Part shown: positions 3,184-53,307 of the stretch, piece by piece
Layout: every line of letters begins with the position of its first letter
Position numbering within the stretch: position 1 is the stretch's first letter
Assembly (NCBI GenBank): GCA_012932295.1
Contig: JAAONU010000009.1
Coordinates: 6,002,203 to 6,066,202 of the forward strand
From: Cyclina sinensis
Taxonomy: Eukaryota; Mollusca; Bivalvia; Venerida; Veneridae
Reading direction: 5' to 3'
DNA: 64,000 nt
Translations under genes and position numbers: made by a program
Notes under the pieces: generated by a model
Told to the model about the DNA's origin: nothing
The model's input: only the letters and a program-made list of their open reading frames with translations
Database searches by the model: none

Positions 3184-6100
3184 ATGGATGTCAAAACACA
3201 AGCTACACCTGAAAAACGAAAACGAAGAGGGCCTGCTCTAACAGAATCGACCAGGAAAAGAAGGAAAGCTGAAAGAGTAAAGAAGTCGAATTTAAACAGA
3301 ATCTCTATTGGGACACAATTTGAGCGTTGGATGAAGTTCAAAAACGAATCTGGGTTAAAAACTCACGCTGATGTTGCCAAAACTCTCTTAGACAAGTAAG
3401 ACAACATTTTGTATTCGCTACAACTGTTAGTTTGTAATGTGTTTGTGTTGTCCAGTTTGTACTGTCGGTGAGGGATCTTAAGGTGTATAAAAATGCAAAC
3501 TGTAACAAACACGATAAATGAGATAAAACATGAATTTGTAGAAAGATGATTTATTAGGTTTCGTACTCAGATGTTTCGTAACAATGTACACCTATAAACA
3601 ATAGATAAAGCAATAGGGTTTGTGTAGATCATTTACAACTACAGGAATACTAGCTGTCATGACTGAAACCCTATTTCGAACTTTTTTCATTAAAAAAGCA
3701 ACAGGCAATTGAAGTCAGTCATATATTAGAATATCCTTTTCACATGGCTACACCTGCTTTTTGTCATGTAATATATTTTTAAAACTGTAACTTTCATGTT
3801 CTTTATTATTTAAGTACACATAAGAAGAAAATATAGGAATATGTTACACAATTTGTGTTACACATGCATTTGAAGAGTTTGTCAGTTTAAAATTTATTTC
3901 ATGAAAATATTTCTTCTTAATGAATCTACTCATACTTTTTATGATTTCTTATGAATTGTTTTACCCATGAACATTACATATTGAATCTACACAAACTTTA
4001 TATTATTTCTCATGATCTAAATGAGGTAGATGTAAGAGCATTGGACGTATCATGTCAAAACGGACCCAAGTTAAAAGGTCCTCATGTCATAAATGATGAT
4101 CATTACTTGTAATTTCGAAATATTATCATCATTTATTATTCCATTATTCTTACCAAATATGTTTTGAACCACATGTAATGTAGATTTAGTTGAAATAATT
4201 TTGATATTGATTTTATTCCTTAAAACCATAAGAAAAGGGAATCAAACTTGTGTAAGATTTTGCTAAGTATATGTAGCTGGAATAGTAAGAGCTCCCACTA
4301 ACTATCAGGACAGTTGCTGTTCAGTTTTTGAGAATAGATCACAGACATTTTGTACATTACATAGTTTGGACACAGAATATTTACAGCATTGTAATTCAGC
4401 TTATTTCTTGGAAAAGTCTTGGGTTAGGGCAGTTTCGACTAAAAGCCAGCACTAGATAATCCAAGACTTGTTGGTTCGATCTCCATAATGGACTAACGTT
4501 TCTTTGGGCAATTTGTCTTATGTATTGATTGTAGTGATAATTTGTCTCACACTTCTAATAAGATCAAATCATGTTAGATTCTGTCAAGTGCAAATTTATT
4601 CATTCATTCATTATATTCTTTTTAGTTTCTTGTCCAGACCTCAGCCTGCTGCACCACAACCTTCAAGTACTAGTAAGGTGACCTCAACTCCGTTTAAATT
4701 CCAATTTAAACAGAAGAAAATGGAAAGTCCAATGGTGTCAGAGATTTCTGTTGCCGAAACTACAGACAGGTACTAGAACAATTTTCTGTAAAAAAAAATT
4801 GGAATTATATTTCTAGAGAAATAAAAAGATTTTTTGCAAGAAAATTGTTTTGTAGTCATGAATGTAATGGATAATTTTGCAACTTTTTTATAGTTAAACT
4901 GTATTGATTTAAGTCATTGTTTTTGTTCATCTTATTCAATATCAATGTTTGATAACTCATTTATATGAAGATAATTTCAGGTAAGTGTACATGTACATAC
5001 AATCAAAGCATTGAAGCAGATGCGTGAATTTTAGAATTCTAGTGAGTGTTCTGTGCATATTTTACTTTAAAAAATTTTTTTTTAGTTCTTAAGTACCTAA
5101 AATGGAATTGATTCAGCATCTAAAGTTCTAACATTAAGCAGTGACAACAAGTCCTGTAACCTAAGTTTTATTGGTACCAGTTGCAGTGAATCAACTCTGT
5201 CAGCGGAAGAAATCAGAAAGGTAAAGGAAGTGAAAACCACTAGCACTGGACGTCAGATCTTCCAGAAAGCTTCATCATCTTTTGTTGATCCTATTAAGTA
5301 AGTTATATACCTATATTTACTCGCATTGCTGAGTTTTAATAGTTTGTTTACAAAACACCACAGTTTCCAAAGTAATCTTTTCCTGTGTATGTAACTATCT
5401 GTTAGTTCTAAGTGAAAACAATTATACATTGTAAATAAATTATTACTTGACCAGATTAGCCAAAAATATTTCTTTTATTACAGCTGTATTCAGTGGGAAC
5501 AAAACAATGTTGCAAGTTGATTATGTTGGTAAAAATATATTACATGTACATGTATTTTAACATTAGTTCATGAGATCACTGTCAGTTTCTTTAAATTGAA
5601 TTTTACTTTGATAGGCCATGTAACTCTATGATCCTTGTTGTTAACAGCTTGTCAATTGATGTGTCTCTGATGTCAGACATTGAAGATCCAGATGAAGATG
5701 ATCCGGATTATGTACCAGAATTTGAAATAACAGCTGTGCTGTGAGTAAAGCCATAATTTATTCCTGATAGGATTGCATAACTGGCAATAACATGCAAGAT
5801 TTCCCTTTGGAAATGCATTTGTGTCATTCAGTTGCAACCTTCACAGTCTTAATTTTTCCGAAATAAATTTTTAGCGATGTGGGCTCAGCATTTGAATTTG
5901 AAATTCCCATCTGCCACCTTCTTCCACAATGTTCAGAGATGTTACATTGTACCGACTGTAAATAGTTATTGGGAGGAACAGCAAACTGAGGTGCTGAACT
6001 CATTTAAGGATACAGATGTGATTGTGTTAGGTAAGCAAGATTGTAGTGTTTGTAAAGTCTAGTAAGCATATTAATAGATAGATATGCTTACCGGAAGACA

Positions 6101-10028: not shown

Positions 10029-10752
10029 GTATATACAGAGAATATAGAAACCTTCCACGAATTCAGTTAATATATGTAATATATTTTCCCAAATTTTGGC
10101 ACAGCATTTGTTTTTATGCCCCCCATTGAAAATGAGGGGGCATATAGTTTGGCAAATTACGGTTGGTCGGTCAGACACTTTGGTTTATGATCAATATCTA
10201 CAGAACCCTTTGACCCACCTTCCTCAGTCTAGGTATGTAGGTTGGTCATGACCATCAGATGACCCCTGTTGTTTTTCAGGTGACCAGGTCAAAGGTCAAG
10301 GTCATATTGACCTTGAATAGCAAAACGGTTTCCAATCAATAACTACATAACCCTTGGATCCAGGTTGTTTGTTTAAACTTAGAAAGTAGGTTGGTCATGA
10401 CCAATAGATGACCCCTGTAGTTTATCACGTCACCAAGTCAAAGGTCACAGAGTCCTTGAAAAGCAAAAAAGTTTCCAATCAGTAACTATATAAACTGGGG
10501 TCCCAGGTTGTTATCCCCCCGCCAAAGGCGGAGGGGATATTAGAAATGCCCTTCGTCCGTCTGTGCGTCCGTGTGTCCGTGCATCTGTGCGTCCGTCCGT
10601 CCGAAACAATTTTGTCCGGAGCATAACTCCAAAACTACTTGAGGGATTTTATTCAAACTTCATACACTGACAGAGCACATTGGTAGGTAGTGCAGTGTGA
10701 AAGTGCAATAACTCTACCTTGCCTTTTTTTAGAGTTATTCCGCTTTATCAAA

Positions 10753-10780
10753 TTAAAGTCCCATTAAGCCTCAGCAACAT
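10753..10780 (+). repeat. TTAA plus R terminal inverted repeat (insertion junction)
   Basis: The inner L sequence ctttatcaaa is followed by TTAA (10753-10756), then AGTCCCATTAAGCCTCAGC. Aligned with the L terminus, the first nine bases are identical, then CTCA and AACAT recur at the same spacing (about 19 of 24). The same junction recurs inverted at 34441-34468. Confidence 0.88.
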
Positions 10781-10945
10781 CAATATTTGTTTTCGAAAGG
10801 AAAGTCAAGTATGTGTAACAGATTTATGTAATTATGTATTATGCATATTATCACGAGGGAAAAACGTTCAAAAACGCCATGGATGCGAAAGAATTATTGG
10901 TAAACTTCTCATCATTGTTTACAAAACAACACGCTCATGTATATT

Positions 10946-10961
10946 CCGAATGTACATTCGG
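10946..10961. promoter_or_regulatory. Perfect 16-bp palindrome CCGAATGTACATTCGG
   Basis: An uninterrupted inverted repeat 190 bp inside the R terminus and about 105 bp upstream of the ballast-gene ATG, conserved in all three R blocks. It could be an operator-like protein site or part of the transposition end. The length makes chance possible but unlikely. Confidence 0.5.
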
Positions 10962-10973
10962 CATTTTTACGGA

Positions 10974-10992
10974 GTTTTCCGTAGACTCTCCG
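10974..10992 (+). promoter_or_regulatory. Candidate subterminal transposase-binding motif, R end
   Basis: Counterpart of the L-end motif at 3099-3116. It shares TTTCCGTAG and a downstream TCCG, and is flanked by further TCCGTA/ACGGA pairs (10970-10996). Confidence 0.4.
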
Positions 10993-11028
10993 TATGTTTT
11001 CGCTATCGGATTAAACCGCAGGAAATGA

Positions 11029-11036
11029 TGACGTCA
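11029..11036. promoter_or_regulatory. CRE palindrome upstream of ballast-domain gene
   Basis: TGACGTCA ends 29 bp before the ATG at 11066. It recurs at 34185-34192 and at the equivalent place near 50403-50410. It occupies almost the same position relative to the start codon as the CRE of the transposase gene, suggesting shared control of both genes. Confidence 0.6.
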
Positions 11037-11065
11037 AACTACACACTTTCTGAAACAACAACAAA

Positions 11066-13263
11066 ATGTCTACCACTGCGTCGGTAAGAAATTTTACAGA
11101 TATGTTTCTCAGTCATTTAATTGAAGTATGGTTTGTGTAAGTTATTACAAAGTCGATGAATTAACAGACATGAGGGCATAACGCAACGAGAGGTAATTGC
11201 GTTGACAATTTCAGAAAAACTGAAGCTGCGCAAATTACCTCACCATCTGTCAAATAATTTCTTCTTCAAATTCAAGGTATAACGTACAGTAGTCAGTACA
11301 CGACAAGTGTTCGGAATAACACAGAGTGACACTTTTCGATATGAAGGATATGAAGCTGAACTTTCAAAAATAAATCTGTTTTTATTCATTTTTTTAAAGA
11401 ATGACGAAATTTGACTGAGAGCAGGGTTTTTCTTTGGTCTTTCAAAGAAAGACCCTGCTGAGAGTTGACCTGGTGATGCAACTTTGCATTGTGTATCAAC
11501 TGTCAACAGTAGTCAATGCTGATATGTCATAACTTTACTTGTCCAATGTGCAGTTCTTAAGTTAAAGTGCCTAAACAGTCGGAAACATTTAAAAAAATGG
11601 TATCAATAGAAACTATTCTGAAGCAATTGGTGAAAGCTGAACAAGTAAGTATTGAATAAAAATAGTGCAGCCCTTTAGTCTTCATTGACATTTTATCATA
11701 ATATGGTTACTGGGAATAATGTGCAGTTGAATAGTATTTTTTGTCTTAAAATGACTGTTCACATGCTGCACATAAGTAAAGTTAGAAGCATTTTACTGGT
11801 TTCTAGATATTGTGTACAATACTTCCAAATTACTAAAAGAATGTTTTTTCTTCAGTCTTCACCTTCATCAGATATCTCTAGTCTGCCAGCCAGAGGGTCT
11901 CCCAGTCCAAGAGGAAGGGGTTACAGAGGTAGAGGCAAGGGGAGAGCATCAAGTCAGGCAAGAGGTAGAGGTCAAGGAAAGGGGAAAGGAAGGGCTAGAG
12001 GCAGAGGACGTGGGCAGTTAGGAGTGGGGGGAAAGAATAGGGCGGATGAGGCCCTTCATATTCTAGAGACAAGAAAGGAACGTTTCAGGGTAATTTTTTC
12101 TAATAGAGTAAAGTAATCATAGATACAAAGTTTCTTTCGTATGTAACACATTATTTCTGTGAAATCAATCCCACTCACAGTTTGTTTAATCCGTGATCCT
12201 GTGAAATGCCAGAACTAGACTGACATCTTTAGAAACTGCCAACTTTGATACATAAATTGTAATGTTTTACACACATAATTCACACAATCATTTTTTTTTC
12301 AGAATGCTTTGGAAGACATGTCAGTAGACAGGATGAGGGATTTGCTTGTCGAGGCAATGGAGAAAAGCCCTTCCTTAATTCTTGATGTTTTTGAGCCTCA
12401 AGAGATTCAATCAGGTGGTTTCCATCCACCAGCCGGGCAGGAGGCACCAGAGTGGTGCATCTGCAGTCACTGCAGAGAGATGCCAACACAGGCTGAGAGA
12501 CTTTGTTGTGGCATGATGCCAGAGCACTGTGTCTCATTATTACCAGTAAGTATTTTATATTATTCCCAGTGGTACTTTTGTTGTAAGGCAATACCAACTA
12601 ACAACACTGCAAAAGCTATTATGTTTTCATTCAAATGATTTTCTTTGTATGATCATTAATATCAGTTAACTTAGTTTGTGGCCACATGTAGGGAGGTTGC
12701 ATGTTATACTCTACCTCATTGATATTTAAAAAGTGAAGAACAAGTAAATCTCAACACTGAAGAATGTTTAATTCAGACAGCTGAACAGAGGTAAATGGAC
12801 TAAATATTTAGCTTATCAGATGCCCTTTCCAAAAGCAGCTTTGCAGTTGTTTAGGTTGTTGAGTTTTTTGATAGTAATAAAACTAGACATTAATAAAAAG
12901 AGAACCCATTACTTGAAAGGTGTCAAGTCAATGACAAAAATTAAATTTATGATAAGGGGGTGTTTGCCTATCAACAAAATTATGTATTGTTCCTTCCAGG
13001 ATTTCCGAGTTCTCATTCTGGATGAGGCTGTGCTGGCTCTCCAGAGAATGTATAGGAAAGACATTCTCGTTTTTGATGACGAAGCTGACTTTAAGAAAGC
13101 CAACAGACATGCTGCTTACAGACAGTTTGTGTTGTGGCAACATGGACGCCTGAGTGTGGGTGACAGGAGGGTTATTCCCTCCTGCAGTGTTTGGAAGATA
13201 AGGGACAAGTACCCAGATGCTTTCGGGCAATACACTGGTTTTGTACCTTCAAGATTAGTTTAA
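11066..13263 (+). CDS. Transposon-borne P2X7 ballast-domain protein, 5 exons
   Basis: Exons 11066-11083, 11579-11644, 11856-12089, 12303-12545 and 13000-13263 join in frame to 274 residues. Residues 42-80 are Arg/Gly/Lys-rich (RGRGKGR-type), suggesting nucleic-acid binding. Residues 155-274 match the intracellular ballast domain of vertebrate P2X7 receptors, also found in many stand-alone invertebrate proteins. The visible hallmarks are WCICSHC (Cys158, 160, 163), CC (174-175), Cys182, AAYRQFVLWQHGRL, IPSC (246-249) with a following Trp, and GQYTGF (263-268). In P2X7 this domain holds zinc ions and a guanine nucleotide. There is no channel or transmembrane part here. A CRE lies 29 bp upstream of the ATG and AATAAA is at 13312-13317, about 50 bp after the stop. 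The function in transposition is unknown. The first two small exons are the least certain; the last three are firm. Confidence 0.8.
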
Positions 13264-13311
13264 AAAGTTTACAAGTGATTTGGTTACTGCCCTCCAGATA
13301 GTGCACATATT

Positions 13312-13317
13312 AATAAA
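13312..13317 (+). terminator. AATAAA poly(A) signal of ballast-domain gene
   Basis: Canonical AATAAA about 50 bp after the stop codon at 13261-13263. It is conserved in the two other R blocks. Confidence 0.6.
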
Positions 13318-16035
13318 AATAAGTTTTATGTATTTTGACATTCTTGTTGTTTTAGTTTAGAGGGCATTGAAACTTAGACATTGACATTTCTTGTCATTGA
13401 AAGGCACCAGAATAATAAGACATTCCTATCAAAACATTTACCCCCTCAATTTCATTTTACTACATGTAATTGTCCATTATTTGAACCCCAGTTAAAGTTT
13501 TTTCAGCTTTTCTTTAAGCCTGGTAGAAACATATGTAGTTTTTGAAATTAAACTAAGAAAAATTTCCAAATTAAAATGAAAATACCTTTAGCATATCTGG
13601 AGTGCAGTAACTAGGTCAATTGATACCATAGAAAAATGTCATTGTTTTCTGAAAGGCACATATTTGCCCAACTTAATAAAAAAAATACTAGAGCATATGT
13701 CTTAATGTTATCTGTGTCATGTTTAAAGTGGGTCATCTAGCAGGGTCAAAAAGTAGGTCACCAGTGTAAAAGCATCAGTGTGACCCTATTGTTTATATAG
13801 TCTTTACCAGATTTTATATCTGTTCTGTGAGAGAAGTGGAAAAGTATCTTGATTGAAAGAAAAGTCTTTTTTGTGTTAGGGGAAAGTTTTGTTAAAGTTC
13901 TAGTAATTCAAATGAAGGTCATCAGCACAATGATCAGGTAGACAAGAAAATTATCACACCGAAAGTGAGTCACACAATGTCAAACATGGATATAGGTTTA
14001 GTTTTGTTCACTACCAGAGTTGTTTTCTGTTTTCGTGCGAGTTTGTAACGTTGCATTACATGACATTTATGTTAAAAATATGCCTGTCAGAAAGCTAACT
14101 TATTTTTATCTATGATCTATCAAAAATTATTACATTGAAAGCTAGTCGCTTATATAAAAATGTTTATTTTGTTCATTGTTCACCAAAATTATTTTGTTTT
14201 GATGCAGTACTTTCTTTCATGCAGATCAAGTAGAAAATGTGCCTTTCACAAAGCTAAATTTAACTATGATGTCAGGAATATTATAACAATTCCTTAAAGA
14301 GCTATTTTTTTATTTTTAGCTCCACATTTTGCAGAAAAAAGTGAAATTATTGCCATTGCTCTCTCGGCATTGGTTACCTTTTTGTTAAGGTCCATTTTCT
14401 CACCTTTCATAATTAACAAAGCCAAATTTTGCATATAATCTTTTATATTTTTAGTTGATATGTTTATTTTGATCAGTTTCAGGTTATGTTCAAGTATTAG
14501 CAATCTGGGTTCAGAATAAGCTCACAGGACCAAGTCATAAAAAGCAACTGTATTGTACAATGGTGCCAATCTTCTGCATCCAACCTTTGTTTAAATTATA
14601 TAGAATGTTCTTCTTAGTGCTTTTAGGTCATGGTCAAATATGGGCGTTTTCAATAAACAAAGGTCAAATGAATAATCTTGTAAACACAATATAAACATTT
14701 GAGTACTGGGGTTAGTAATATTTTATTGAACAAATATGAACACATCAATTTATGCTAAGAACAACATTATATTATGACATCATGACCCTTTTGTATTTTA
14801 TTAGATGCCATACTACAGCATGATGTTCAGTTACAGAGAACTGCCACTTTTTATATTTCTATCTGTTTAGTTGTCATTTAAAACTGTTAATTGAAGTCAC
14901 ACAGAAAAATAAATTCATGCAATTTGCTTTCATGTAATCTTGATGATATATATGTATGGCTTTGTAAAGTAAGCAGGTTTGCTAAACTAAATGATTTTAA
15001 TCAGAATCATCTTTTCTCTTTCAAACATTCAGTAAAGCACATATAATAATAATCACTATATCAATAAAAGGTTCATTTTCATATAAGTGGGTAATTGATC
15101 TTATTAACAACGACACAAAAGTAAAACATAAATAGCTTATACATAGTTATTTTGTATGAGAAAAAGAAGATGCATAATAAAGAAAACTTAATTATTTAAC
15201 TTTTCATTTGTTTTTAATTCCATCCCAAGCTAAAGTACATGTATTTTATTTCTCTCAAATAATTTTGTTCATGTATTTTTACCAGTGCTTGGAAGTAAAT
15301 AGAGGGTCTTGGATTTAATCTGGCAAGATGATTCTAACCTGCTGCCTTTGAGCATGGAACCTCTGCCCCTACATCAGCATCAAAGTGTACTAAATATCAG
15401 TCAACAGTGTATATCACTTCTACCATGACAGTCTCCTTTGCAAAGGCACCGTTTTTGGGAAATGTCCTCACAGTGAATATAATGTCATTTTATTAAGGGT
15501 ATTTTGTACAATTACAGATTTCAGAATGAACAGTTGTGGTTAAAAATTCGTCCTAATAAACCCCCGAGTAAAATGGTACTAAAGTTTTCAACAAACCAAT
15601 ACCGTAGTTATACTCAGCAGTGTCAATCCCTTAAGCTACCTGATGGCAGGAGAAATAATCTAAACAAAAGTTAAAACCATGGATAATTGCAAGTGAAACA
15701 TTCTGGAGGTGCACTAAGCCAAGATATGCCACAAAGCGGTCAGACAACATTGTGATCTTGGCCCCCAGAAATAAGAACTTGACGTTTTTTGTTGTCAAAC
15801 CTATGTTGCACCACAATAGAGAATAAAGCCATGGAAAATTAAAGGGGACATGTACTCAGCGAAGTTAACCAAATAAAATTTAAAAACTGGGTCATGTATT
15901 TTTCAAGTTGCAGACTGCAACCCGTGTTCAACTTTAAAGTAATGATGACCTTGAACAATTAACTAAGAGGCCTATCATGATATAGGTTTAAAGGTCTTAT
16001 TAAAATAGCACACAAGTTACTCATCGAAAATTCTC
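13318..16035. other. AT-rich spacer between the two convergent transposon genes
   Basis: About 2.7 kb between the 3' ends of the ballast-domain gene and the transposase gene. Only short open frames occur, with no recognisable protein or RNA gene. Equivalent spacers are at roughly 29190-31900 and 45410-48120. Some short GGTCA-type motifs occur but no clear repeat unit. Confidence 0.6.
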
Positions 16036-16111
16036 TTTAATGTCTATATAAAGGTGACATTGACCTTTACAACTATGAAGTATCAGTCATTCTAATCTTT
16101 ACAAGGAAAGC

Positions 16112-19100
16112 TCATTTAGTCTCAAATCTGGACTTCTTCTCTTCAACCAGCTGTTTTGTTGAAATGGGCTCTACAGGGGCAAGATGGGTTGCTATTCTTC
16201 TAGGGTCATCTGCCTCCAGTTCTCTCCTTTTCATTCCAATCTTGTCCTCCAATCTCAATATTAATGCTCTCCTTTTCAGATGCTTCACATATCCATAGTC
16301 TTTCTTCTCTTTTTCTGGAAAGACTGACCATCTGTTGCTTTTCTTCACAAAGCATCTATGGTACCTGTAAGAAAAAATATCATTGCTTACTAATATATTA
16401 AAAGTACATGATGGTTGATATTCCCCTCAGTCCGTGATTTCCTTTAGTACTCTTTATCCCAAACAAACTGAATAGTTGCTGCTATAAAATCTAGGTTGTC
16501 TGATTAGGACAACAAAGGTTTCCAACAAAATTTGCCTTGAAAACTGTAAACATGTTCCACAGCTCATTCTTCTACACATGTAGCTTCAAAAGTCTGTCAA
16601 AATATTATGGCCATGGACTGTAGAGGCACAATGCAAATGTTAGAAGATTTTGAGTGTTGACAAATGTTCCTGTGTACTTGAGTAATACTTCCATCTGGTA
16701 GTGTTACAAAGATCATACATTTAGTTCAAGCAACAATAGTTGTTCAAAATTTGTGAAGAAAGGAACAAAGCGAACAAGAGATGTCTGTCCCTAGAGACAG
16801 CCATCAAGTTTTGAGAAGCTGGGACCAAGCGTTCAATTGTTGTTAATCTGAAACCATTTTGCTATTCAAGGACCATGAACTTTGACCTGGTGACCCGAAA
16901 AACTTAAGAATTCATGTACAAGTCATGAACAACTTAAATACAAAGTTTGAGGAACATGGGCCAAAGCGTTTTACATTTATTCATTCTAAACCATTTTGCT
17001 TTTCAAAGTCGCTGTGACCATTGACCTTTTAACCAAATGACCTGAAAAACAGCAGTTGTCATCTACTGACCTTTGACCTTACAACCTTAAGAACTACGGG
17101 GTCATCTAGTTATGACCAACCTACTTATGAAGTTTTGAGGAGCTGGACCCGAGCTTTCTATAATAATTGTTTGGACACTGTTTTGCTGTACAAGGTCACC
17201 GTTACCTAAATCTTTGACATGAGAAGCTATTGGGGTCATCTACTGGTTATGGCCAACCTTCACACTAAGTCTGAAGAACATGGGACCAAAGGTTGTATAG
17301 TTATTGATTGGAAACCTTTTGCTGTTCAAGGTCACTCTGACCTTGAACTTTGACCTGGTAAAAAAAATATAAGGGTCATGTACTAGTCTTGACCAACTTA
17401 CATATTAAGTTTGAACAAGAGCCATGTTACACATGGTTAATCCCCCCGCCGGGACGAAGCTACCTGAGGGTTGTACTTTCAAACACTCAATGCAATAATG
17501 TTTGAAGAAAATCCCACAAAAAATAGGCAAGGTAGAGCTATTGTTCTTGCAAACTGCACTTCCTACCAATGTGCTATGTCAGTGTATTAAGTTTGAAGAA
17601 AATCGCTCAAGCACTTTTGGAGTTATGCTTCGGACAAAGTTTTTCAATTAAATCTGATGAAGGGGAATAATTCTAAAAGTAGGCAAGGTAGAGTTATTAT
17701 TCTTTCACACTGCACCTCCTCCAAATGTGCTCTTTCAGTATATGAAGTTTGAAGAAAATCACTCAAGTACTTTGGGAGTTATGCTCCGGACAAAACTGGA
17801 ACGGACGGACGCACGGACGGACAGAGACCTTTTCTTATATCCCCTCCACCTTTGGCGGGGGGATAATAAGTTCAAGAATTCAAGAATTAGATATATATGT
17901 AAATGCTGGGATTTTTAAAATGTAAACAAGTAAATCTGATAAAGGGGAATAACTCTAAAAAATAGGCAAGGTAGAGTTATTGGACTTGCACACTGCACTA
18001 CCTACCAATGTGCTCTGTCAGTGTATGAAATTTGAATAAAATCCCTCAAGTAGTTTTGGAGTTATACTCCGGACAAAATTTATCAAGTAATTCTGATAAA
18101 GGGGAATAACTCTAAAAATAGGCAAGGTAGAGTTATTGCTCTTGCACACTGCACTACCTACCAATGTGCTCTGTCAGTGTATGAAGTTTGAATAAAATCC
18201 CTCAAGTAGTTTTGGAGTTATGCTCCGGACAAAATTTATCAAGTTAATTTGATAAAGCGGAATAACTCTAAAAAAAGGCAAGGTAGAGTTATTGCACTTT
18301 CACACTGCACTACCTACCAATGTGCTCTGTCAGTGTATGAAGTTTGAATAAAATCCCTCAAGTAGTTTTGGAGTTATGCTCCGGACAAAATTGTTTCGGA
18401 CGGACGGACGCACAGATGCACGGACACACGGACGCACAGACGGACGAAGGGCATTTCTAATATCCCCTCCGCCTTTGGCGGGGGGATAACAACCTGGGAC
18501 CCCAGTTTATATAGTTACTGATTGGAAACTTTTTTGCTTTTCAAGGACTCTGTGACCTTTGACTTGGTGACGTGATAAACTACAGGGGTCATCTATTGGT
18601 CATGACCAACCTACTTTCTAAGTTTAAACAAACAACCTGGATCCAAGGGTTATGTAGTTATTGATTGGAAACCGTTTTGCTATTCAAGGTCAATATGACC
18701 TTGACCTTTGACCTGGTCACCTGAAAAACAACAGGGGTCATCTGATGGTCATGACCAACCTACATACCTAGACTGAGGAAGGTGGGTCAAAGGGTTCTGT
18801 AGATATTGATCATAAACCAAAGTGTCTGACCGACCAACCGTAATTTGCCAAACTATATGCCCCCTCATTTTCAATGGGGGGCATAAAAACAAATGCTGTG
18901 CCAAAATTTGGGAAAATATATTACATATATTAACTGAATTCGTGGAAGGTTTCTATATTCTCTGTATATACCTGATTTCTCCATCCTTGTTTCTTTTCAG
19001 TGGTCTGTCTACATGATAGTTGTGGTCAATGGCAGCCAGTCTATTTCGTATCTTGTAAACGGGTGGGGAATATGCAAATCTTTTTGCGCAATACATCAGA

Positions 19101-22100
19101 ATAAGCTGATGAAAAACCTCAAGTTCTGAAGTACTTCTGAAAGTGGTATAAAATAAACCAGTAATGTTACTGAGCATCAAAGAAATCAGAACATCTGAAT
19201 TAAAATTTGTTTTTCCAGTTTTACTTCCGGTACTACTTTCATCAGAAAGAAACAAGAACTGTCACAGTAAGATGAAAATTCCCCCGAAAGTGGTGCTTTC
19301 ATCTGAGAACCAGTCATTCAGGGGTCAAGTTCAAATAAATATAGGTCAGTGGGAAGGCCTTGTCCAAAGGTGTGTGGTGTCCTAGTATGAAGTAAATGTA
19401 CTTACTAATAAGAAAGTTATTGCAAATGTTAAAGTTTTCGGACATACTGACGGACGGACAGTTCAAAAACTATATGCCTCCCTTTGGGGGCATAAAAATA
19501 CAGACATTCTGTAATGAAACAAACAAGATTTACAAATAGGGTTGATTCTATACAACAGGAGCTATCCATATAACTGCACAATTGTATATTCATATTTGTT
19601 GATGTTATAATTTGAGCCAGTGACTGAAAGAAAGATACTTAAATTGCAACCAATAATCAGATAACAAGGGCCTTGAGTCATGACTAAGAAATATTATGGA
19701 GGCTCACACATCCATCAAATAAAAAGACTGGGCCCTTCTCTCTCATTTTTTTAAATTGAAGAGCAAAAATACCTGAAGTTCAAATAGTAATGGACCTTTC
19801 CAAGTAATCTTTTATCAAGCATAACTGCTTGAAGTTTCTCCAGAACCTTTTTGTCCTCAGATGGGGATAACCACTGTTTGCTTCTCTCTTCTTCTGGATC
19901 AAGTGGGTCATGTAAACACTGATTGATGCCAGTACCATGTGACAATACCCATTCGTGCTGGTTGGTAATGTGATGAAGCAGACTACGCCATATGCACTGA
20001 AAAGGATATGCTTCTTAGTAAACAAGTCATTATTTATGATTTACCATGAACACCTGACAAAAATTGATCTTTGATCTACTTGTTGTTACAATCCCATCAG
20101 TGACTGACATTTCATTCACCTGATTTTGTAAAAAATATTTACTACCATTTAACTTACAAACTTAATAACACTGGATGGTAGTTTTAAGTAAAAAGAAGTG
20201 AATGATACAGTACTTGCTTCTAAGTGTAACATGCTTTCATAGAACTTTTACTGAAAAAAAGACATAACCTACCATGAACTCTAGATAGTTTGTGGCCTTG
20301 CTGCAAGAGAACCAGAAGTGATTCAGAATATCACGCTGCCAGTTGACCAGAATTCTGTTCTCCTTTTTCTGGGCAACCTGAAAAAAGTATTTCACAACCC
20401 CTCAGGTTCTCATTTTTGTTGACTGTTTGAAGTGTCTTTTTCAATAACTCATTATATAAATATATGTTCTAATTTCCTCTGTACTTTTTGGCTTTGTAGG
20501 TAGGCTGTGTTTTCTGACTGTAGCTATTCCTGAGATGCCTTTTTCATTTTTTTCTTCTTACACTAACTAAGTTATGGTTAATGCTTGGCATTTAGAATGG
20601 ACCTTTTGAGCTGTTGACTATGATCAGATCACAGCTATACAGAAGCAATAGAATATGTTCTAAATGTTCTTTCTGAGACCAGGTCAATCTAATTGTGTAC
20701 TGATTGATATGGCAATGTCTTTACTAACCCCATTTCATTCTTATGAAAAAATGAAAAAGTTGTGGCATGTCTGCAGAAGGAACACATTACATCTGAACAT
20801 TAATAATCCACATAAATCTTGTAGATAACACTTCAATAGGGGTTGAGATAAAACCAGCAATTTTCTTTTTATAATTGTAAAAACACAAGTATCCCAAAAT
20901 TCATGTTTAATATTTATATATTCTTGTAAATAGAGAAAACCAAGAAAAATACCTTCATTATTTTCTTCCCTAGGTTTTTGGCTGCATGCCAAATGTCATG
21001 TGAATGTTTGATGTGTCCATAAGTTGACTCTGAAAATGAAACAACTAAACCCATTTATTACAACAACTACTACTGTGTCAAGAATTTTTTTAGAAATTTA
21101 TATTATAAATCAACTGATAGTAAATTTCCAATTTATTCTGGATAATGCTAGTATTCTGTACAAAAACAGCATGAAAGTACACAAGGTTTCTCATTGGCTT
21201 TTTAGGTTAAAGGCAGTCTGTAAGATGTTTTATAAAACATACATGTTAAATTAAAAAAGGAAATTTTAGGAGATACTGTCATTAAACCTGGTAACAGACA
21301 GATCTGTATGCAAATGATTATGCAGTTGTCAATATTGGGTTTGAGGTATATCAACAGTACAATATACTGAAAGGCATATCATTTTCTATCAACAGTCGAC
21401 AGGAAGTAACACTTCTAAAATGAAAGAGACAGCATATTATTTTCTTCTGTTTTTCATAAAGTTAATGTTTGCACAACAGCTTTGTTATCCTTCTTTTACA
21501 AATCACATCAGATAAATTCCGAACTTGGTCTGAGAATTAAAAAAAAAGAGATGTCTTTAAAGCATATGTGCCCCCCTAGTGCCTTATCCCTAGAGGGTGC
21601 TATGAAGTTTTCAGGAGCTGGGACCAATCATTCTATAGTTATTGTTCGGAAACCATTTTGCCATTCAATATCACTGTGACCTTGGCATTTCTCCTTATGA
21701 TCTGAAAAACTAAAGGGCTCATGTACTGGTCAGGAACAACCTATATACCATGTTTCAGGAACATGGGCCTAAGAATTCCTCAGTAATTCAACAGAAACAA
21801 TTTTGCTTTTCAAGGTCACTTTGACCTTGACCTTTGACCTGGAGACCTGAAAACTGTAAGGGACATGTACTGGCCATGACCAACCTACACACTCAGTTTG
21901 AAGAATTTGGACCCATGGTTCTATAGTTATTGATCAGAAACCGTTTTGCTTTTCCAGGTCACTGTGACCATGACCTTTGATGTTAAAAACTACAGGGGTC
22001 ATTTACTGGTCATGACCAACCTACATACCAAGATTGAGGAAGGTTGGTACAAGGGTTTTCTCTAGATATTGATCGGAAATGAAGTGCCCCCTCATCTTCA

Positions 22101-25100
22101 ATGGGGGCATATAAAATAATTAAAGATATATACCACAGTCTGAATAGCTCCAGTAGGGCTGTCAATATGAAATAATGACAGCCATATTTCTCAATGAAAG
22201 TTTAACTGAAGGCCAGATTGTTCAATGTTTAGATGATTTAAATGTAAAAGCTTACTCATGACTGCTCCTATCCCTAAGTGGGCATCTGTCACAACTTCCT
22301 TGACAGGGATTCCTTTATCAAGAATTTCTTGCATGGCTCTAGTAAAACCATTTTTTTCCATATTAGTTGACTTGAGCTCTGTTGTCCTCTTGTCTAGCGT
22401 TTGAATTGTTAGAATCTTTTTGCTGTTTTCCTCCATCAAGGTATATGAGCAGTACTGAGCTGAGTGACCAGGTGAATCATTACGCCCATCACCTGTGATT
22501 TAAATATATAAAACTCATTGAAACATTGGAGGGGGGGGGAAGGGGGTTAACCCTAAACTCACCTTTCTTCTCACATAACCTATATCTGAACATGACCTTG
22601 AAATAATAAGACACACCAAGATAAAGTAATATCCTGTGATTGAAAAGTAAATTATAAATCGTATGTAACTAAGCTGAATCAAGTCCATGCCTATTACAAC
22701 TCTTCTGCAGGGAGCATAATTAACTCTGCATATAAAATTTATAAATAATAAAATTGCATCATTGGGAACAGACAGCTGAAATTATTGTTTTAAAAATAGA
22801 AGAAGCTAATATGTAATTTTCTTTTAAGCAGCTAAGAAAAGACTGGGCAGATATCCCCCTACATAAATGTCAATATCTGATTGCATGTACATATATGTAC
22901 TGTCTTCCGGTAAGCATATCTATCTATTAATATGCTTACTAGACTTTACAAACACTACAATCTTGCTTACCTAACACAATCACATCTGTATCCTTAAATG
23001 AGTTCAGCACCTCAGTTTGCTGTTCCTCCCAATAACTATTTACAGTCGGTACAATGTAACATCTCTGAACATTGTGGAAGAAGGTGGCAGATGGGAATTT
23101 CAAATTCAAATGCTGAGCCCACATCGCTAACTTGCCGAAATTGTTCCCTGATGTCAAAATTGACACACATGTCAGAAAGTCTCCACTGTGGACACGTCTG
23201 TTTAAAACTGCCTGAGAGCACCAAGAATGTAGGATGTGACCAGACTCACATACCTGAAAATGATTTCAAAAATTAGATCCAATATAAAATTTACTGTACC
23301 TAACAAAGCAAATTCAAAATAACTTCCTATATCCATTAAAAAGGTACCAAACTAGTGTTTTTCAAGTTTGTCTGAGCTGGTTTTTTGCTTTTTGGATTTA
23401 TGCCAATTCAACATCATTATCATTATTAACATAGTACCAACAGTTTAAGACTGGGGACAGTAGTATGATTTAGTATGAATCTGAGGTGCATGCAAAAAGT
23501 GTATTTTTTGCAAATGGACTGTACCATATGCAGCAAATTCTACATAACTTACCCATCTTAGGTATACAGCAGACCCTACATATTCTTCTTTGACCGTTAT
23601 TATTGATGGGGTCTCACATTTTTCTCTCACACACTTGGTGACATTAGTCTTTGCCAGAACTTTTAGCTGCTCAACAAATGACAGGCATATGATGGAATCT
23701 GCTAATGAATCACACTCATTTATGTCTTTAACTTTTCTAACACCCTCCATAACATCTTCTTCTGTTCCTTCAACATCTTCATCTTCTTCCTGCTCCATAT
23801 TAAATTCTACTTCCTCAAATGCCAACTCCTCCAAACCCTCTGCTGCCTCACCCCTGAACAAGGAAAGAATTTGTTTGAAAAATAATTAACTTTATGACCA
23901 TTTCTTTTCAATTTGTGAGCCAACAACTTAACAGATTATCTGTGTAAAAAGCATCAAAAATTTATTTCGGAAAAATTAAGACTGTGAAGGTTGCAACTGA
24001 ATGACACAAATGCATTTCCAAAGGGAAATCTTGCATGTTATTGCCAGTTATGCAATCCTATCAGGAATAAATTATGGCTTTACTCACAGCACAGCTGTTA
24101 TTTCAAATTCTGGTACATAATCCGGATCATCTTCATCTGGATCTTCAATGTCTGACATCAGAGACACATCAATTGACAAGCTGTTAACAACAAGGATCAT
24201 AGAGTTACATGGCCTATCAAAGTAAAATTCAATTTAAAGAAACTGACAGTGATCTCATGAACTAATGTTAAAATACATGTACATGTAATATATTTTTACC
24301 AACATAATCAACTTGCAACATTGTTTTGTTCCCACTGAATACAGCTGTAATAAAAGAAATATTTTTGGCTAATCTGGTCAAGTAATAATTTATTTACAAT
24401 GTATAATTGTTTTCACTTAGAACTAACAGATAGTTACATACACAGGAAAAGATTACTTTGGAAACTGTGGTGTTTTGTAAACAAACTATTAAAACTCAGC
24501 AATGCGAGTAAATATAGGTATATAACTTACTTAATTGGATCAACAAAAGATGATGAAGCTTTCTGGAAGATCTGACGTCCAGTGCTAGTGGTTTTCACTT
24601 CCTTTACCTTTCTGATTTCTTCCGCTGACAGAGTTGATTCACTGCAACTGGTACCAATAAAACTTAGGTTACAGGACTTGTTGTCACTGCTTAATGTTAG
24701 AACTTTAGATGCTGAATCAATTCCATTTTAGGTACTTAAGAACTAAAAAAAAATTTTTTAAAGTAAAATATGCACAGAACACTCACTAGAATTCTAAAAT
24801 TCACGCATCTGCTTCAATGCTTTGATTGTATGTACATGTACACTTACCTGAAATTATCTTCATATAAATGAGTTATCAAACATTGATATTGAATAAGATG
24901 AACAAAAACAATGACTTAAATCAATACAGTTTAACTATAAAAAAGTTGCAAAATTATCCATTACATTCATGACTACAAAACAATTTTCTTGCAAAAAATC
25001 TTTTTATTTCTCTAGAAATATAATTCCAATTTTTTTACAGAAAATTGTTCTAGTACCTGTCTGTAGTTTCGGCAACAGAAATCTCTGACACCATTGGACT

Positions 25101-26642
25101 TTCCATTTTCTTCTGTTTAAATTGGAATTTAAACGGAGTTGAGGTCACCTTACTAGTACTTGAAGGTTGTGGTGCAGCAGGCTGAGGTCTGGACAAGAAA
25201 CTAAAAAGAATATAATGAATGAATGAATAAATTTGCACTTGACAGAATCTAACATGATTTGATCTTATTAGAAGTGTGAGACAAATTATCACTACAATCA
25301 ATACATAAGACAAATTGCCCAAAGAAACGTTAGTCCATTATGGAGATCGAACCAACAAGTCTTGGATTATCTAGTGCTGGCTTTTAGTCGAAACTGCCCT
25401 AACCCAAGACTTTTCCAAGAAATAAGCTGAATTACAATGCTGTAAATATTCTGTGTCCAAACTATGTAATGTACAAAATGTCTGTGATCTATTCTCAAAA
25501 ACTGAACAGCAACTGTCCTGATAGTTAGTGGGAGCTCTTACTATTCCAGCTACATATACTTAGCAAAATCTTACACAAGTTTGATTCCCTTTTCTTATGG
25601 TTTTAAGGAATAAAATCAATATCAAAATTATTTCAACTAAATCTACATTACATGTGGTTCAAAACATATTTGGTAAGAATAATGGAATAATAAATGATGA
25701 TAATATTTCGAAATTACAAGTAATGATCATCATTTATGACATGAGGACCTTTTAACTTGGGTCCGTTTTGACATGATACGTCCAATGCTCTTACATCTAC
25801 CTCATTTAGATCATGAGAAATAATATAAAGTTTGTGTAGATTCAATATGTAATGTTCATGGGTAAAACAATTCATAAGAAATCATAAAAAGTATGAGTAG
25901 ATTCATTAAGAAGAAATATTTTCATGAAATAAATTTTAAACTGACAAACTCTTCAAATGCATGTGTAACACAAATTGTGTAACATATTCCTATATTTTCT
26001 TCTTATGTGTACTTAAATAATAAAGAACATGAAAGTTACAGTTTTAAAAATATATTACATGACAAAAAGCAGGTGTAGCCATGTGAAAAGGATATTCTAA
26101 TATATGACTGACTTCAATTGCCTGTTGCTTTTTTAATGAAAAAAGTTCGAAATAGGGTTTCAGTCATGACAGCTAGTATTCCTGTAGTTGTAAATGATCT
26201 ACACAAACCCTATTGCTTTATCTATTGTTTATAGGTGTACATTGTTACGAAACATCTGAGTACGAAACCTAATAAATCATCTTTCTACAAATTCATGTTT
26301 TATCTCATTTATCGTGTTTGTTACAGTTTGCATTTTTATACACCTTAAGATCCCTCACCGACAGTACAAACTGGACAACACAAACACATTACAAACTAAC
26401 AGTTGTAGCGAATACAAAATGTTGTCTTACTTGTCTAAGAGAGTTTTGGCAACATCAGCGTGAGTTTTTAACCCAGATTCGTTTTTGAACTTCATCCAAC
26501 GCTCAAATTGTGTCCCAATAGAGATTCTGTTTAAATTCGACTTCTTTACTCTTTCAGCTTTCCTTCTTTTCCTGGTCGATTCTGTTAGAGCAGGCCCTCT
26601 TCGTTTTCGTTTTTCAGGTGTAGCTTGTGTTTTGACATCCAT
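16112..26642 (-). CDS. Kolobok-superfamily transposase, intact 12-exon gene
   Basis: Catalyses cut-and-paste movement of the element. I place 12 exons on the minus strand: 26431-26642, 25057-25188, 24531-24689, 24088-24180, 23553-23853, 22971-23253, 22256-22492, 20953-21029, 20273-20377, 19773-19996, 18972-19136, 16112-16364. All have GT-AG borders and compatible phases, giving 2241 nt (746 residues plus stop). Residues 1-71 are very basic and end in IGTQFERWMKFKNESGLK; I see no THAP finger. An acidic stretch follows, with VCESGH at the exon 6 start. The catalytic region resembles Kolobok: GDGRNDSPG (Asp395), VVTDAH (Asp463), a HDIWHAAKNLGKK block (484-494) and NQHEW (Glu548) as probable third acid. 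The tail has YHRCFVKKSNRW. This copy has Asn441 where the others have Ile. The last intron is 2.6 kb, holds repeats, and contains the TTAA used for nested insertion. A CRE lies 22 bp before the ATG; an ATTAAA signal is at 16036-16041. Exon borders are my reading, not cDNA. Confidence 0.85.
16750..17420. repeat. AGGTCA-rich dispersed repeat in R inner region
   Basis: Four or more decayed units of about 120-130 bp. Each contains variants of 'ggaccaagcg', 'gaaaccattttgctgttcaaggtcac' split by changes, 'tgacctttgacctgg' and 'aggggtcatctactgg'. The units are oriented opposite to those in the L blocks. This type of unit is dispersed in bivalve genomes. Copies are at about 27800-28470 and 44020-44690. 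Confidence 0.65.
17430..17875. repeat. TCCG-rich hairpin repeat, inner R region
   Basis: Two diverged units of the tccggagcataactcc family, read on the minus strand, end in a (TCCG)n-like tract and a hairpin cccctccacctttggcgggg near 17840-17862. This is a dispersed repeat and not coding. Confidence 0.65.
17938..18410. repeat. 156-bp tandem repeat, three units spanning the insertion target
   Basis: Units start gataaaggggaataactct at 17938 and 18095 and gataaagcgg at 18251 (periods 157 and 156). Each runs through ggcaaggtagagttatt, cactgcactacctaccaatg and tagttttggagttat to ctccggacaaaatt. The TTAA used for nested insertion is at the unit 2/3 border, where only this border reads aagTTAAttt. 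Confidence 0.85.
18234..18257. other. Uninterrupted internal TTAA, the self-insertion target
   Basis: Sequence around 18244-18247 reads tttatcaagTTAAtttgata. The 20 bases centred on TTAA differ from their own reverse complement at only two positions. It is intact here, whereas at 10753/26974 and 34465/43193 the equivalent site is interrupted by a terminal repeat. It lies inside a 156-bp tandem repeat unit and inside the last transposase intron. Confidence 0.85.
18411..18890. repeat. Hairpin plus AGGTCA-rich dispersed repeats, inner L region
   Basis: A CGGACGGACGCACAG-type tract, a strong hairpin cccctccgcctttggcgggg (18464-18484), then AGGTCA-type units ending in atgccccctcattttcaat and its inverted partner near 18855-18888. 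Counterparts are at 10110-10620 (plus orientation) and 34630-35110. All of it is intronic to the transposase. Confidence 0.65.
19430..19495. repeat. Short TCCG/TATGCCCCC repeat fragment in a transposase intron
   Basis: Contains ggacatactgacggacgg and ctatatgcctccctttgg followed by gggcataaa, the end of the same bivalve-type dispersed repeat family. Counterparts are at 9503-9570 and 35650-35718. Confidence 0.6.
21545..22113. repeat. AGGTCA-rich dispersed repeat inside a transposase intron
   Basis: Between exons 7 and 8. It is bounded by gcatatgtgccccccta on one side and tgaagtgccccctcatct with gggggcatata on the other, with four internal units each carrying a tgaccttgacctttgacctg-like block. 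Counterparts are at 6886-7450 and 37767-38335. It is probably an older dispersed element captured by the ancestor of all copies, since every L block has it at the same place. Confidence 0.65.
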
Positions 26643-26664
26643 TTTCTTCGAATTCTCGTTCAGA

Positions 26665-26672
26665 TGACGTCA
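26665..26672. promoter_or_regulatory. CRE palindrome upstream of transposase
   Basis: TGACGTCA, within the longer palindrome AGATGACGTCATCT, ends 22 bp before the transposase ATG at 26642. The same site is at 3154-3161 and 42884-42891 in the other L blocks. It is the full consensus for CREB/ATF factors. Promoter activity is inferred from position. Confidence 0.6.
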
Positions 26673-26949
26673 TCTAGTTCTGCGTACTTCCGAAGTTTAC
26701 AGAGTATCGCGGACCGACTACGGAAACGCGTGCCGATGTCTAACGAACTGACTTCGGAAATTCTCGCTTATGAATTTTGTAAACACAATCAGTATTTTGA
26801 CATCCATCCGAAATACCAATTTGGGTTTTTCAATAAGTAATATCGAGACAAGTAACAGGCATTGGAAAATGAGACGTGTTCATTCTGTATCATTTCATGT
26901 TTGAAGCAATTTGTAAAATTTCCGTTGTCATTTTTGAAACGGAAAAATA

Positions 26950-26977
26950 ATGTTTTTGAGAATGAATGGGACTTTAA
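26950..26977 (-). repeat. L terminal inverted repeat plus TTAA (insertion junction)
   Basis: gaatgaatgggact ends at 26973, then TTAA 26974-26977, then the inner R sequence cttgataaattttgtccgg. Together with the junction at 10753 this gives a clean TTAA duplication around 10757-26973. Confidence 0.88.
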
Positions 26978-31957: not shown

Positions 31958-34155
31958 TTAAACTAATCTTGAAGGTACAAAACCAGTGTATTGCCCGAAA
32001 GCATCTGGGTACTTGTCCCTTATCTTCCAAACACTGCAGGAGGGAATAACCCTCCTGTCACCCACACTCAGGCGTCCATGTTGCCACAACACAAACTGTC
32101 TGTAAGCAGCATGTCTGTTGGCTTTCTTAAAGTCAGCTTCGTCATCAAAAACGAGAATGTCTTTCCTATACATTCTCTGGAGAGCCAGCACAGCCTCATC
32201 CAGAATGAGAACTCGGAAATCCTGGAAGGAACAATACATAATTTTGTTGATAGGCAAACACCCCCTTATCATAAATTTAATTTTTGTCATTGACTTGACA
32301 CCTTTCAAGTAATGGGTTCTCTTTTTATTAATGTCTAGTTTTATTACTATCAAAAAACTCAACAACCTAAACAACTGCAAAGCTGCTTTTGGAAAGGGCA
32401 TCTGATAAGCTAAATATTTAGTCCATTTACCTCTGTTCAGCTGTCTGAATTAAACATTCTTCAGTGTTGAGATTTACTTGTTCTTCACTTTTTAAATATC
32501 AATGAGGTAGAGTATAACATGCAACCTCCCTACATGTGGCCACAAACTAAGTTAACTGATATTAATGATCATACAAAGAAAATCATTTGAATGAAAACAT
32601 AATAGCTTTTGCAGTGTTGTTAGTTGGTATTGCCTTACAACAAAAGTACCACTGGGAATAATATAAAATACTTACTGGTAATAATGAGACACAGTGCTCT
32701 GGCATCATGCCACAACAAAGTCTCTCAGCCTGTGTTGGCATCTCTCTGCAGTGACTGCAGATGCACCACTCTGGTGCCTCCTGCCCGGCTGGTGGATGGA
32801 AACCACCTGATTGAATCTCTTGAGGCTCAAAAACATCAAGAATTAAGGAAGGGCTTTTCTCCATTGCCTCGACAAGCAAATCCCTCATCCTGTCTACTGA
32901 CATGTCTTCCAAAGCATTCTGAAAAAAAAATGATTGTGTGAATTATGTGTGTAAAACATTACAATTTATGTATCAAAGTTGGCAGTTTCTAAAGATGTCA
33001 GTCTAGTTCTGGCATTTCACAGGATCACGGATTAAACAAACTGTGAGTGGGATTGATTTCACAGAAATAATGTGTTACATATGAAAGAAACTTTGTATCT
33101 ATGATTACTTTACTCTATTAGAAAAAATTACCCTGAAACGTTCCTTTCTTGTCTCTAGAATATGAAGGGCCTCATCCGCCCTATTCTTTCCCCCCACTCC
33201 TAACTGCCCACGTCCTCTGCCTCTAGCCCTTCCTTTCCCCTTTCCTTGACCTCTACCTCTTGCCTGACTTGATGCTCTCCCCTTGCCTCTACCTCTGTAA
33301 CCCCTTCCTCTTGGACTGGGAGACCCTCTGGCTGGCAGACTAGAGATATCTGATGAAGGTGAAGACTGAAGAAAAAACATTCTTTTAGTAATTTGGAAGT
33401 ATTGTACACAATATCTAGAAACCAGTAAAATGCTTCTAACTTTACTTATGTGCAGCATGTGAACAGTCATTTTAAGACAAAAAATACTATTCAACTGCAC
33501 ATTATTCCCAGTAACCATATTATGATAAAATGTCAATGAAGACTAAAGGGCTGCACTATTTTTATTCAATACTTACTTGTTCAGCTTTCACCAATTGCTT
33601 CAGAATAGTTTCTATTGATACCATTTTTTTAAATGTTTCCGACTGTTTAGGCACTTTAACTTAAGAACTGCACATTGGACAAGTAAAGCTATGACATATC
33701 AGCATTGACTACTGTTGACAGTTGATACACAATGCAAAGTTGCATCACCAGGTCAACTCTCAGCAGGGTCTTTCTTTGAAAGACCAAAGAAAAACCCTGC
33801 TCTCAGTCAAATTTCGTCATTCTTTAAAAAAATGAATAAAAACAGATTTATTTTTGAAAGTTCAGCTTCATATCCTTCATATCGAAAAGTGTCACTCTGT
33901 GTTATTCCGAACACTTGTCGTGTACTGACTACTGTACGTTATACCTTGAATTTGAAGAAGAAATTATTTGACAGATGGTGAGGTAATTTGCGCAGCTTCA
34001 GTTTTTCTGAAATTGTCAACGCAATTACCTCTCGTTGCGTTATGCCCTCATGTCTGTTAATTCATCGACTTTGTAATAACTTACACAAACCATACTTCAA
34101 TTAAATGACTGAGAAACATATCTGTAAAATTTCTTACCGACGCAGTGGTAGACAT
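31958..34155 (-). CDS. P2X7 ballast-domain protein, second copy
   Basis: Exons 34138-34155, 33577-33642, 33132-33365, 32676-32918 and 32221... to the stop at 31958 (last exon 31958-32221). The predicted protein reads the same as the 11066-13263 copy wherever I compared it, with all Cys and IPSC/GQYTGF motifs kept and no frame break. The CRE is at 34185-34192. Nothing in this copy looks disabled although its transposon unit is rearranged. Confidence 0.78.
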
Positions 34156-50373: not shown

Positions 50374-50686
50374 TTTGTTGTTGTTTCAGAAAGTGTGTAG
50401 TTTGACGTCATCATTTCCTGCGGTTTAATCCGATAGCGAAAACATACGGAGAGTCTACGGAAAACTCCGTAAAAATGCCGAATGTACATTCGGAATATAC
50501 ATGAGCGTGTTGTTTTGTAAACAATGATGAGAAGTTTACCAATAATTCTTTCGCATCCATGGCGTTTTTGAACGTTTTTCCCTCGTGATAATATGCATAA
50601 TACATAATTACATAAATCTGTTACACATACTTGACTTTCCTTTCGAAAACAAATATTGATGTTGCTGAGGCTTAATGGGACTTTAA

Positions 50687-53300: not shown

Positions 53301-53307
53301 CAGTGGT

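Follow-up and report, generated by a model that had tools for sequence, protein, structure and literature searches.

Kol0 transposons of the Kolobok superfamily encode, beside their transposase, a second protein named KolX, which has the fold of the ballast domain of the P2X7 receptor (Kojima and Bao 2022, PMC9587614). Homology is the authors' argument for a transposon origin of the ballast domain; they derive P2X7 from a fusion with KolX, and they regard zebrafish nanor as a likely domesticated KolX. Vertebrates, annelids, cnidarians and sponges are given as examples of Kol0 hosts, a list that names no molluscs; the available text of that study gives no function for KolX. The ballast domain had been described by Rump et al. 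(2020, PMC7016195), in whose text, as available, the string 'transpos' does not occur. Here we analysed 64,000 nucleotides from the genome of the bivalve Cyclina sinensis (hereafter the window; C18:6002203-6066202 of the 902.9-Mb assembly that was searched), which contain a KolX gene in a mobile element that is probably of the Kol0 kind.

Results

In the window, the KolX gene lies inside a TTAA-bounded unit, is copied together with it and encodes a P2X7 ballast domain. A sequence-only reading of this DNA had proposed a spliced frame of 274 residues between the R terminus of a Kolobok transposon and the 3' end of its transposase gene, and our five-exon model gives exactly 274 amino acids at that place (Table 1). 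The gene is located between the R terminus (TTAA at 10753) and the last transposase exon (16112-16364, minus strand), and the two genes are convergent. As had also been claimed, KolX is present in all three R blocks: the four exons tested (11597-11644, 11856-12089, 12303-12545 and 13000-13263) recur exactly, as reverse complements, in R2 and R3.

The ballast-domain match of KolX is far beyond chance. A search with profile models assigned the protein to the Pfam family P2RX7_C (PF20478) with an E-value of 5.7e-32 and 111.6 bits (curated cut-off 23.5 bits), and P2X7 structure chains were matched with E-values of 6.9e-21 to 2.6e-20, which bears out the C-terminal P2X7 ballast domain of the earlier reading. 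No P2X channel domain was detected among the three Pfam rows with E≤1, of which P2RX7_C alone exceeded its cut-off. All seven zinc-coordinating cysteines of the ballast family are present in the window KolX when it is aligned with P2X7. The ballast domain forms the C-terminal part of the protein and is preceded by an N-terminal part rich in arginine and glycine; regions outside the ballast domain are hardly probed by the fold search. Rfam returned 0 matches at the gathering score.

An alternative KolX model that starts at codon 11597 yields 262 residues. Because this codon reads Leu in the four other copies that reach it (C14a, C11a, C11c and C12y), we favour a start upstream of 11597. Where exon 2 begins is uncertain, since one C14 copy (L067, C14:4806301-4808301) has an additional stretch of about 1 kb between window positions 11563 and 11598, at the 5' edge of this exon; exon 1 and its donor are unchanged in that copy. 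At two junctions on C11 (L022 and L023), the L end of the next element begins at a TTAA about 0.5 kb past the 11563-11598 point.

The last three KolX exons (741 bases) of copies C18a and C14a, which belong to two different element subfamilies, differ by 5 silent changes (164 sites) and no replacement change (574 sites; Fisher p 0.0005), and 50 of 2410 noncoding bases changed. Copies C14c, C11a and C11f gave the same coding counts against C18a as C14a did, with a noncoding divergence in the restricted run of 2.0% (2.1% for C14a). An earlier noncoding figure of 3.9% for C14a was set aside because it took in window positions 11500-11599, which straddle the extra kilobase of C14. Exon 2 was left out of the count because its start is uncertain. 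In the exons measured, nine of the 12 young copies are free of coding gaps. Even the C12 relics, with gaps or stops in KolX, show a dN/dS of 0.32-0.33 against C18a, with coding change far below noncoding change. Thus, KolX is under purifying selection. In exons 5-8 of the transposase, C14a and C18b differ by 6 silent and 2 replacement changes (188 and 709 sites); KolX is kept about as tightly as the transposase.

We searched the genome for further copies, and all match counts are lower bounds. With up to three mismatches, the R-terminus and the L-terminus patterns were each found at 10 places (reversed controls: 0 for both), and all 10 L ends found fall in the clusters C18, C14 and C11. The last KolX exon had 22 DNA matches: 12 at 97-100% in C18 (3), C14 (3) and C11 (6), 2 at 92-95% on C12 and 8 that were more diverged. 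Transposase exon 7 had 11, ten of them at 99-100% in C18 (3), C14 (3) and C11 (4) and one at 68%. Ballast exons are present in every cluster with young transposase matches (10 of 10 matches), and in two older C12 relics KolX and transposase remnants are a few kb apart. This DNA search, within its lower-bound counts, found no transposase copy of the window family away from KolX, in agreement with the earlier claim that the gene, inside the TTAA ends, travels with the element. Near the diverged KolX matches L045-L050, comparison of both proteins with 3-kb windows (about 1.5 kb on each side) revealed pieces of KolX but no transposase. Six diverged copies, L046-L049 (C16, C2, C14, C16), L064:1894-2534 and L065:216-482 (C12), have a last exon with 62-74% protein identity and probably represent other KolX families of the same genome.

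Relatives in other species carry the same gene pair. In Saccostrea cucullata, three contigs (sizes 169,089, 447,411 and 30,772) carry both KolX and the transposase. These were found among 15 'ncbi' KolX rows on contigs below 1 Mb (counted by eye among 120 listed), and 3 of 15 is a floor because the transposase list holds 93 rows; two genes were assigned to the same contig by the identical size of their records. For eight same-contig pairs, KolX and transposase protein distances were correlated (r 0.48, permutation p 0.016), also when two more chromosome-scale pairs were included (r 0.36, p 0.018). Of these pairs, three come from short contigs and one from the window, and the rest are chromosome-scale; a Dreissena pair (P0004 and P0211, on a chromosome-scale contig with a transposase fragment) was left out. 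The mobile two-gene element proposed earlier has therefore held, with KolX inside the TTAA ends, copied with the element and joined by the transposase on the Saccostrea contigs.

Of the 69 KolX relatives aligned, 64 retain the full set of seven zinc-type cysteines. The Arg/Gly-rich front, noted earlier in the window protein, recurs as well: of the 39 rows in which 40 or more residues precede the first helix, 28 have seven or more RG/GR steps in this part. Equivalents of rat P2X7 R546, H547, Y550 and R578 are conserved in 67, 64, 69 and 67 of the 69 relatives; R216, H217 and R248 of the window KolX correspond to R546, H547 and R578. The equivalents of R574 and K583 are Val and Asp in the window KolX (rat alignment). 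Outside the deuterostomes, Rump et al. reported R546 and R578 to be present but not H547 (PMC7016195, as far as its available text goes). Given His in 64 of the 69 rows, our alignment indicates that most of the named molluscs must have an H547 equivalent. Searches by pattern plus tblastn in viral and in bacterial and archaeal contigs gave 26 and 25 pattern matches, none of which was confirmed as a KolX relative.

A tree of the ballast domain was computed from 45 rows; P0010 and P0118 were dropped since they lack the search motif, and unnamed metagenome proteins were not entered. Some supported groups cross phyla (for example 97/91 for sea urchins plus a coral), and oyster sequences occur in several groups. 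With 14 of the 42 inner branches open, the deep order of the tree stays unsettled. One predicted protein, P0048 of Alosa sapidissima (412 aa), has DUF5641 ahead of the ballast domain. DUF5641 occurs in retroelements, and in P0048 gene prediction has probably fused two mobile elements into one model.

For the transposase, 93 homologues were listed. In the 94-row alignment, counting rows with a letter at the position, D394 is conserved in 90 of 92, D462 in 92 of 92, D483 in 87 of 90, H486 in 86 of 89 and E613 in 81 of 82. D483-x-x-H486 (DIWH) forms the C/DxxH motif between the second D and the last E that characterizes Kolobok DDE transposases; which of the conserved residues are catalytic is a prediction from the alignment. 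No Pfam family scored above its cut-off for the transposase (best DDE_Tnp_ISL3, E 0.13), and some of the homologues carry a precomputed PF20700.

The outer L and R ends of the uninterrupted element, inverted relative to each other, both begin AGTCCCATT, and past the TTAA the two termini match at 19 of 25 bases (counted by eye). The ends read 5'-AG ... CT-3' and fit the rule 5'-RR / YY-3', which separates Kolobok from piggyBac (PMC9587614). TTAA targets, typical of the superfamily, flank the C18 nest (2849-2852 / 50683-50686) and the outer ends of the C14 array. The two ends of one unit have a short inverted repeat in common; the direct-repeat listing of the window (minimum 100 nt) contained no long terminal direct repeats of KolobokP type (about 450 or 660 bp) pairing the two ends of one unit. 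The second protein is the one that marks Kol0, KolX with a ballast domain, its fold being taken from the model of a relative.

Table 1. Coordinates of the element, its genes and the nest in the window
Feature	Position	Strand	Details
KolX / ballast-domain gene	11066-13263	+	5 exons, 274 aa
KolX exons	11066-11083, 11579-11644, 11856-12089, 12303-12545, 13000-13263		
Kolobok DDE transposase gene	16112-26642	-	12 exons, 749 aa (745 with the other exon 2 acceptor)
Transposase exons 1-6	26642-26431, 25200-25057, 24686-24531, 24180-24088, 23853-23553, 23253-22971		
Transposase exons 7-12	22492-22256, 21029-20953, 20377-20273, 19996-19773, 19136-18972, 16364-16112		
Uninterrupted Kolobok (Kol0-like) element	10753-26977	-	16,225 bp including the TTAA at both ends
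Half-units of the uninterrupted element	R1 10753-18247; L2 18244-26977		
R-side terminus	10753-10781	+	TTAA + AGTCCCATTAAGCCTCAGCAACATC
L-side terminus	26949-26977	-	TTAA + AGTCCCATTCATTCTCAAAAACATT
Central TTAA between R1 and L2	18244-18247		context TTTATCAAG-TTAA-TTTGATAAAG; internal target where nested copies join
Composite nest	2849-50686		half-units L1+ R1+ L2- R2- L3- R3-; TTAA and non-element sequence on both sides
KolX copy in R2	31958-33624	-	four tested exons letter-identical to R1
KolX copy in R3	48177-49842	-	four tested exons letter-identical to R1

The element picture of the earlier reading stood in part: the gene lies inside TTAA ends, but only L2 plus R1 make up an uninterrupted element, with the transposase on the minus strand. 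Here the transposase exons are all collinear, and in the other half-units they are not collinear with their last exon. In C18, one element sits within another at the central TTAA, and this composite in turn adjoins more half-units at that TTAA. Self-comparison outlined the nest, and each of the junctions 10753, 26974, 34465 and 43193 is a TTAA, one of which has since mutated: the outer-end TTAA of L3 (43193-43196) now reads TTTA in L3 orientation, among seven base changes private to L3. The C18 copies differ by 0.1-0.2% and carry private differences. L1 is a defective copy, because a deletion of about 826 bp relative to L2 and L3 (window 5871-5872 versus 23130-23956) removed exon 5 of the transposase gene together with part of exon 6. 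Strict nesting predicts eight half-units and six were seen; we therefore infer that recombination removed one tandem unit or that the assembly collapsed it.

In C14, three 16.6-kb elements are arranged head to tail (4791607-4841416; L025-L027, L010-L012), neighbours share a single TTAA, and the trimer is flanked outside by non-element sequence. C11 is a complex cluster with four L-end matches and six KolX copies; at one locus (L018, C11:47974588-47977616), two R ends abut in head-to-head orientation, as a palindrome that lacks 11 bases of one terminus. On C12, three R ends (L009, L016 and L017) have a common flank, TTAA followed by AGAAAGTGAAA, which suggests either that a segment was duplicated along with the element in it or that the unit is a derived one.

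Copy distances were determined in one set of 3.2-kb windows at the last KolX exon and in a second set around transposase exon 7. Around the KolX exon, differing sites numbered 4-5 within C18, 0-4 within C14, 0-26 within C11 (outlier C11c), 8-12 for C14 versus C11 (C11c excluded) and 96-120 for C18 versus C14 or C11, the last figure taking in the poorly aligned stretch at window 11500-11599 (extra kilobase in C14). Around exon 7, C18b and C18c differ at 12 sites, copies within C14 and within C11 at 0-1 each, C14 and C11 at 2-3, and C18 and both others at 47-54; C18a was left out here and in the transposase selection comparison because its 826-bp deletion misaligns it. The nest and the trimer could have arisen by local re-insertion, from end-joined circles or by unequal exchange.

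A common repeat with palindromic CCCCGCC...GGCGGGG ends is found at 10510-10545, 17838-17870 and 18455-18490, in or beside the last transposase intron, and a 35-base piece of it occurs exactly 164 times in the genome (85 + 79). By eye, the central TTAA appears to sit within the sequence of this repeat. To the right of the nest, at 53300-57300, lies a spliced membrane-protein gene that we take to resemble TMEM45.

Discussion

Taken together, our results make it likely, as one joint conclusion, that the window contains a Kol0-type Kolobok DNA transposon which was recently active and encodes two proteins, a DDE transposase and KolX, and that KolX is an accessory protein of Kolobok transposition. 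KolX would act in trans with the transposase. Its Arg/Gly-rich front, probably disordered because it is of low confidence in the model of a relative, would hold nucleic acid, either element DNA or transposase RNA. The seven-cysteine ballast domain and the helices that precede it would serve as a protein-interaction or ligand-sensing module, which would load or license the transposase complex. From such an element, P2X7 would have gained its ballast exon, as already published.

Several observations weigh against this picture. The selection result amounts to about one independent comparison, since the C14 and C11 copies are near-identical, and it is based on few changes; with the short exon 2 included, two replacement changes appear as well (start Met to Leu, and Glu to Lys). 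Three of the 12 young copies (C11b, C11c and C11d) have coding indels in KolX, and the front part of P0037, P0066 and P0085 has 0 RG/GR steps. KolX-like proteins are also found in a few piggyBac families (PMC9587614), so KolX is not exclusive to Kolobok, and the element is provisionally placed in Kol0 by its KolX gene rather than by a superfamily tree with Repbase families. Concerning the earlier suggestion that a related element supplied the P2X7 exon, the idea was argued in print in 2022 (PMC9587614), but our joint tree backs it weakly: P2X7 stands beside a shark protein on a long branch with 90/58 at the key node.

Could the ballast gene instead be a host gene, captured by the element or flanked by chance insertions, with no part in transposition? 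Rump et al. treated ballast proteins as animal proteins, with two linked markers that are conserved across sponge, molluscs, arthropods and echinoderms (PMC7016195), and the diverged ballast loci lack a transposase within about 1.5 kb. However, KolX lies inside the termini, transposase remnants accompany it in the C12 relics, short contigs are shared in Saccostrea, and it is reported as part of Kol0 elements (PMC9587614), which makes a host gene highly improbable. More weight, though still short of likely, goes to a host-side role, in which KolX would be an RG-type RNA-binding protein against silencing, or a copy-number regulator, and would not belong to the transposition complex. The RG-rich front fits such a role, and purifying selection suits any function that helps the element; the nuclease gene of KolobokP, with the same downstream, opposite-strand layout, suggests a DNA-processing niche instead (PMC9587614).

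The multi-copy layout (C18 nest, C14 trimer, C11 cluster) might also be an assembly artefact of uncollapsed haplotypes or false joins. Long repeats as similar as those of C18 are hard to assemble, and two of the half-units that strict nesting would need are missing there. Yet the C18 and C14 junctions all fall on a TTAA at a terminus (one now mutated), the three loci differ in layout, and the C18 copies have private differences, so that we hold an artefact to be unlikely, to about the same degree as the host-side role. Slightly more doubtful is a specific version of the accessory role, in which KolX would be a subunit with a zinc fold. Through the pocket that P2X7 later inherited, this subunit would sense (guanine) nucleotide or DNA phosphate and thereby license transposition. 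The near-constant equivalents of R546, H547, Y550 and R578 speak for it, and the absence of those of R574 and K583 from the window KolX against it. If true, the puzzling GDP/GTP site of P2X7 would be a transposon leftover.

The main inference of the sequence-only reading was thus correct but already in print (Kojima and Bao 2022, PMC9587614). The window element is a new, well-preserved family of the known KolX-bearing Kolobok kind; less expected is its arrangement in a nest and a trimer, and our literature search found no report joining nested self-insertion with a TTAA transposon. A well-preserved, recently active element opens KolX to study in its original setting, and a young two-gene element with measurable selection makes its function amenable to a simple transposition assay. 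Such work could tell what the ballast domain did before it joined an immune receptor.

Among described systems, Kol0 with KolX (Kolobok-1_XT) is alike in its TTAA target, 5'-RR...YY-3' ends, DDE transposase with DxxH and ballast-domain second protein; the window element differs in being about 16 kb long, with many introns and internal repeats, and in occurring in nests and a head-to-tail trimer. KolobokP likewise forms element multimers at one site and has its second gene downstream on the opposite strand. However, that gene is a His-Me finger nuclease instead of KolX, and the window family lacks the long terminal direct repeats, its C14 neighbours sharing the TTAA only. Nanor and other ZCD-containing proteins (Rump et al. 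2020, PMC7016195) are similarly short proteins with a C-terminal ballast domain, but nanor is a zebrafish gene and the window KolX lies inside a transposon. With the P2X7 receptor, finally, KolX shares the ballast domain, the seven zinc-site cysteines and the equivalents of rat R546, H547, Y550 and R578; in place of the ion-channel part it has the Arg/Gly-rich front, and Val and Asp stand where P2X7 has R574 and K583.
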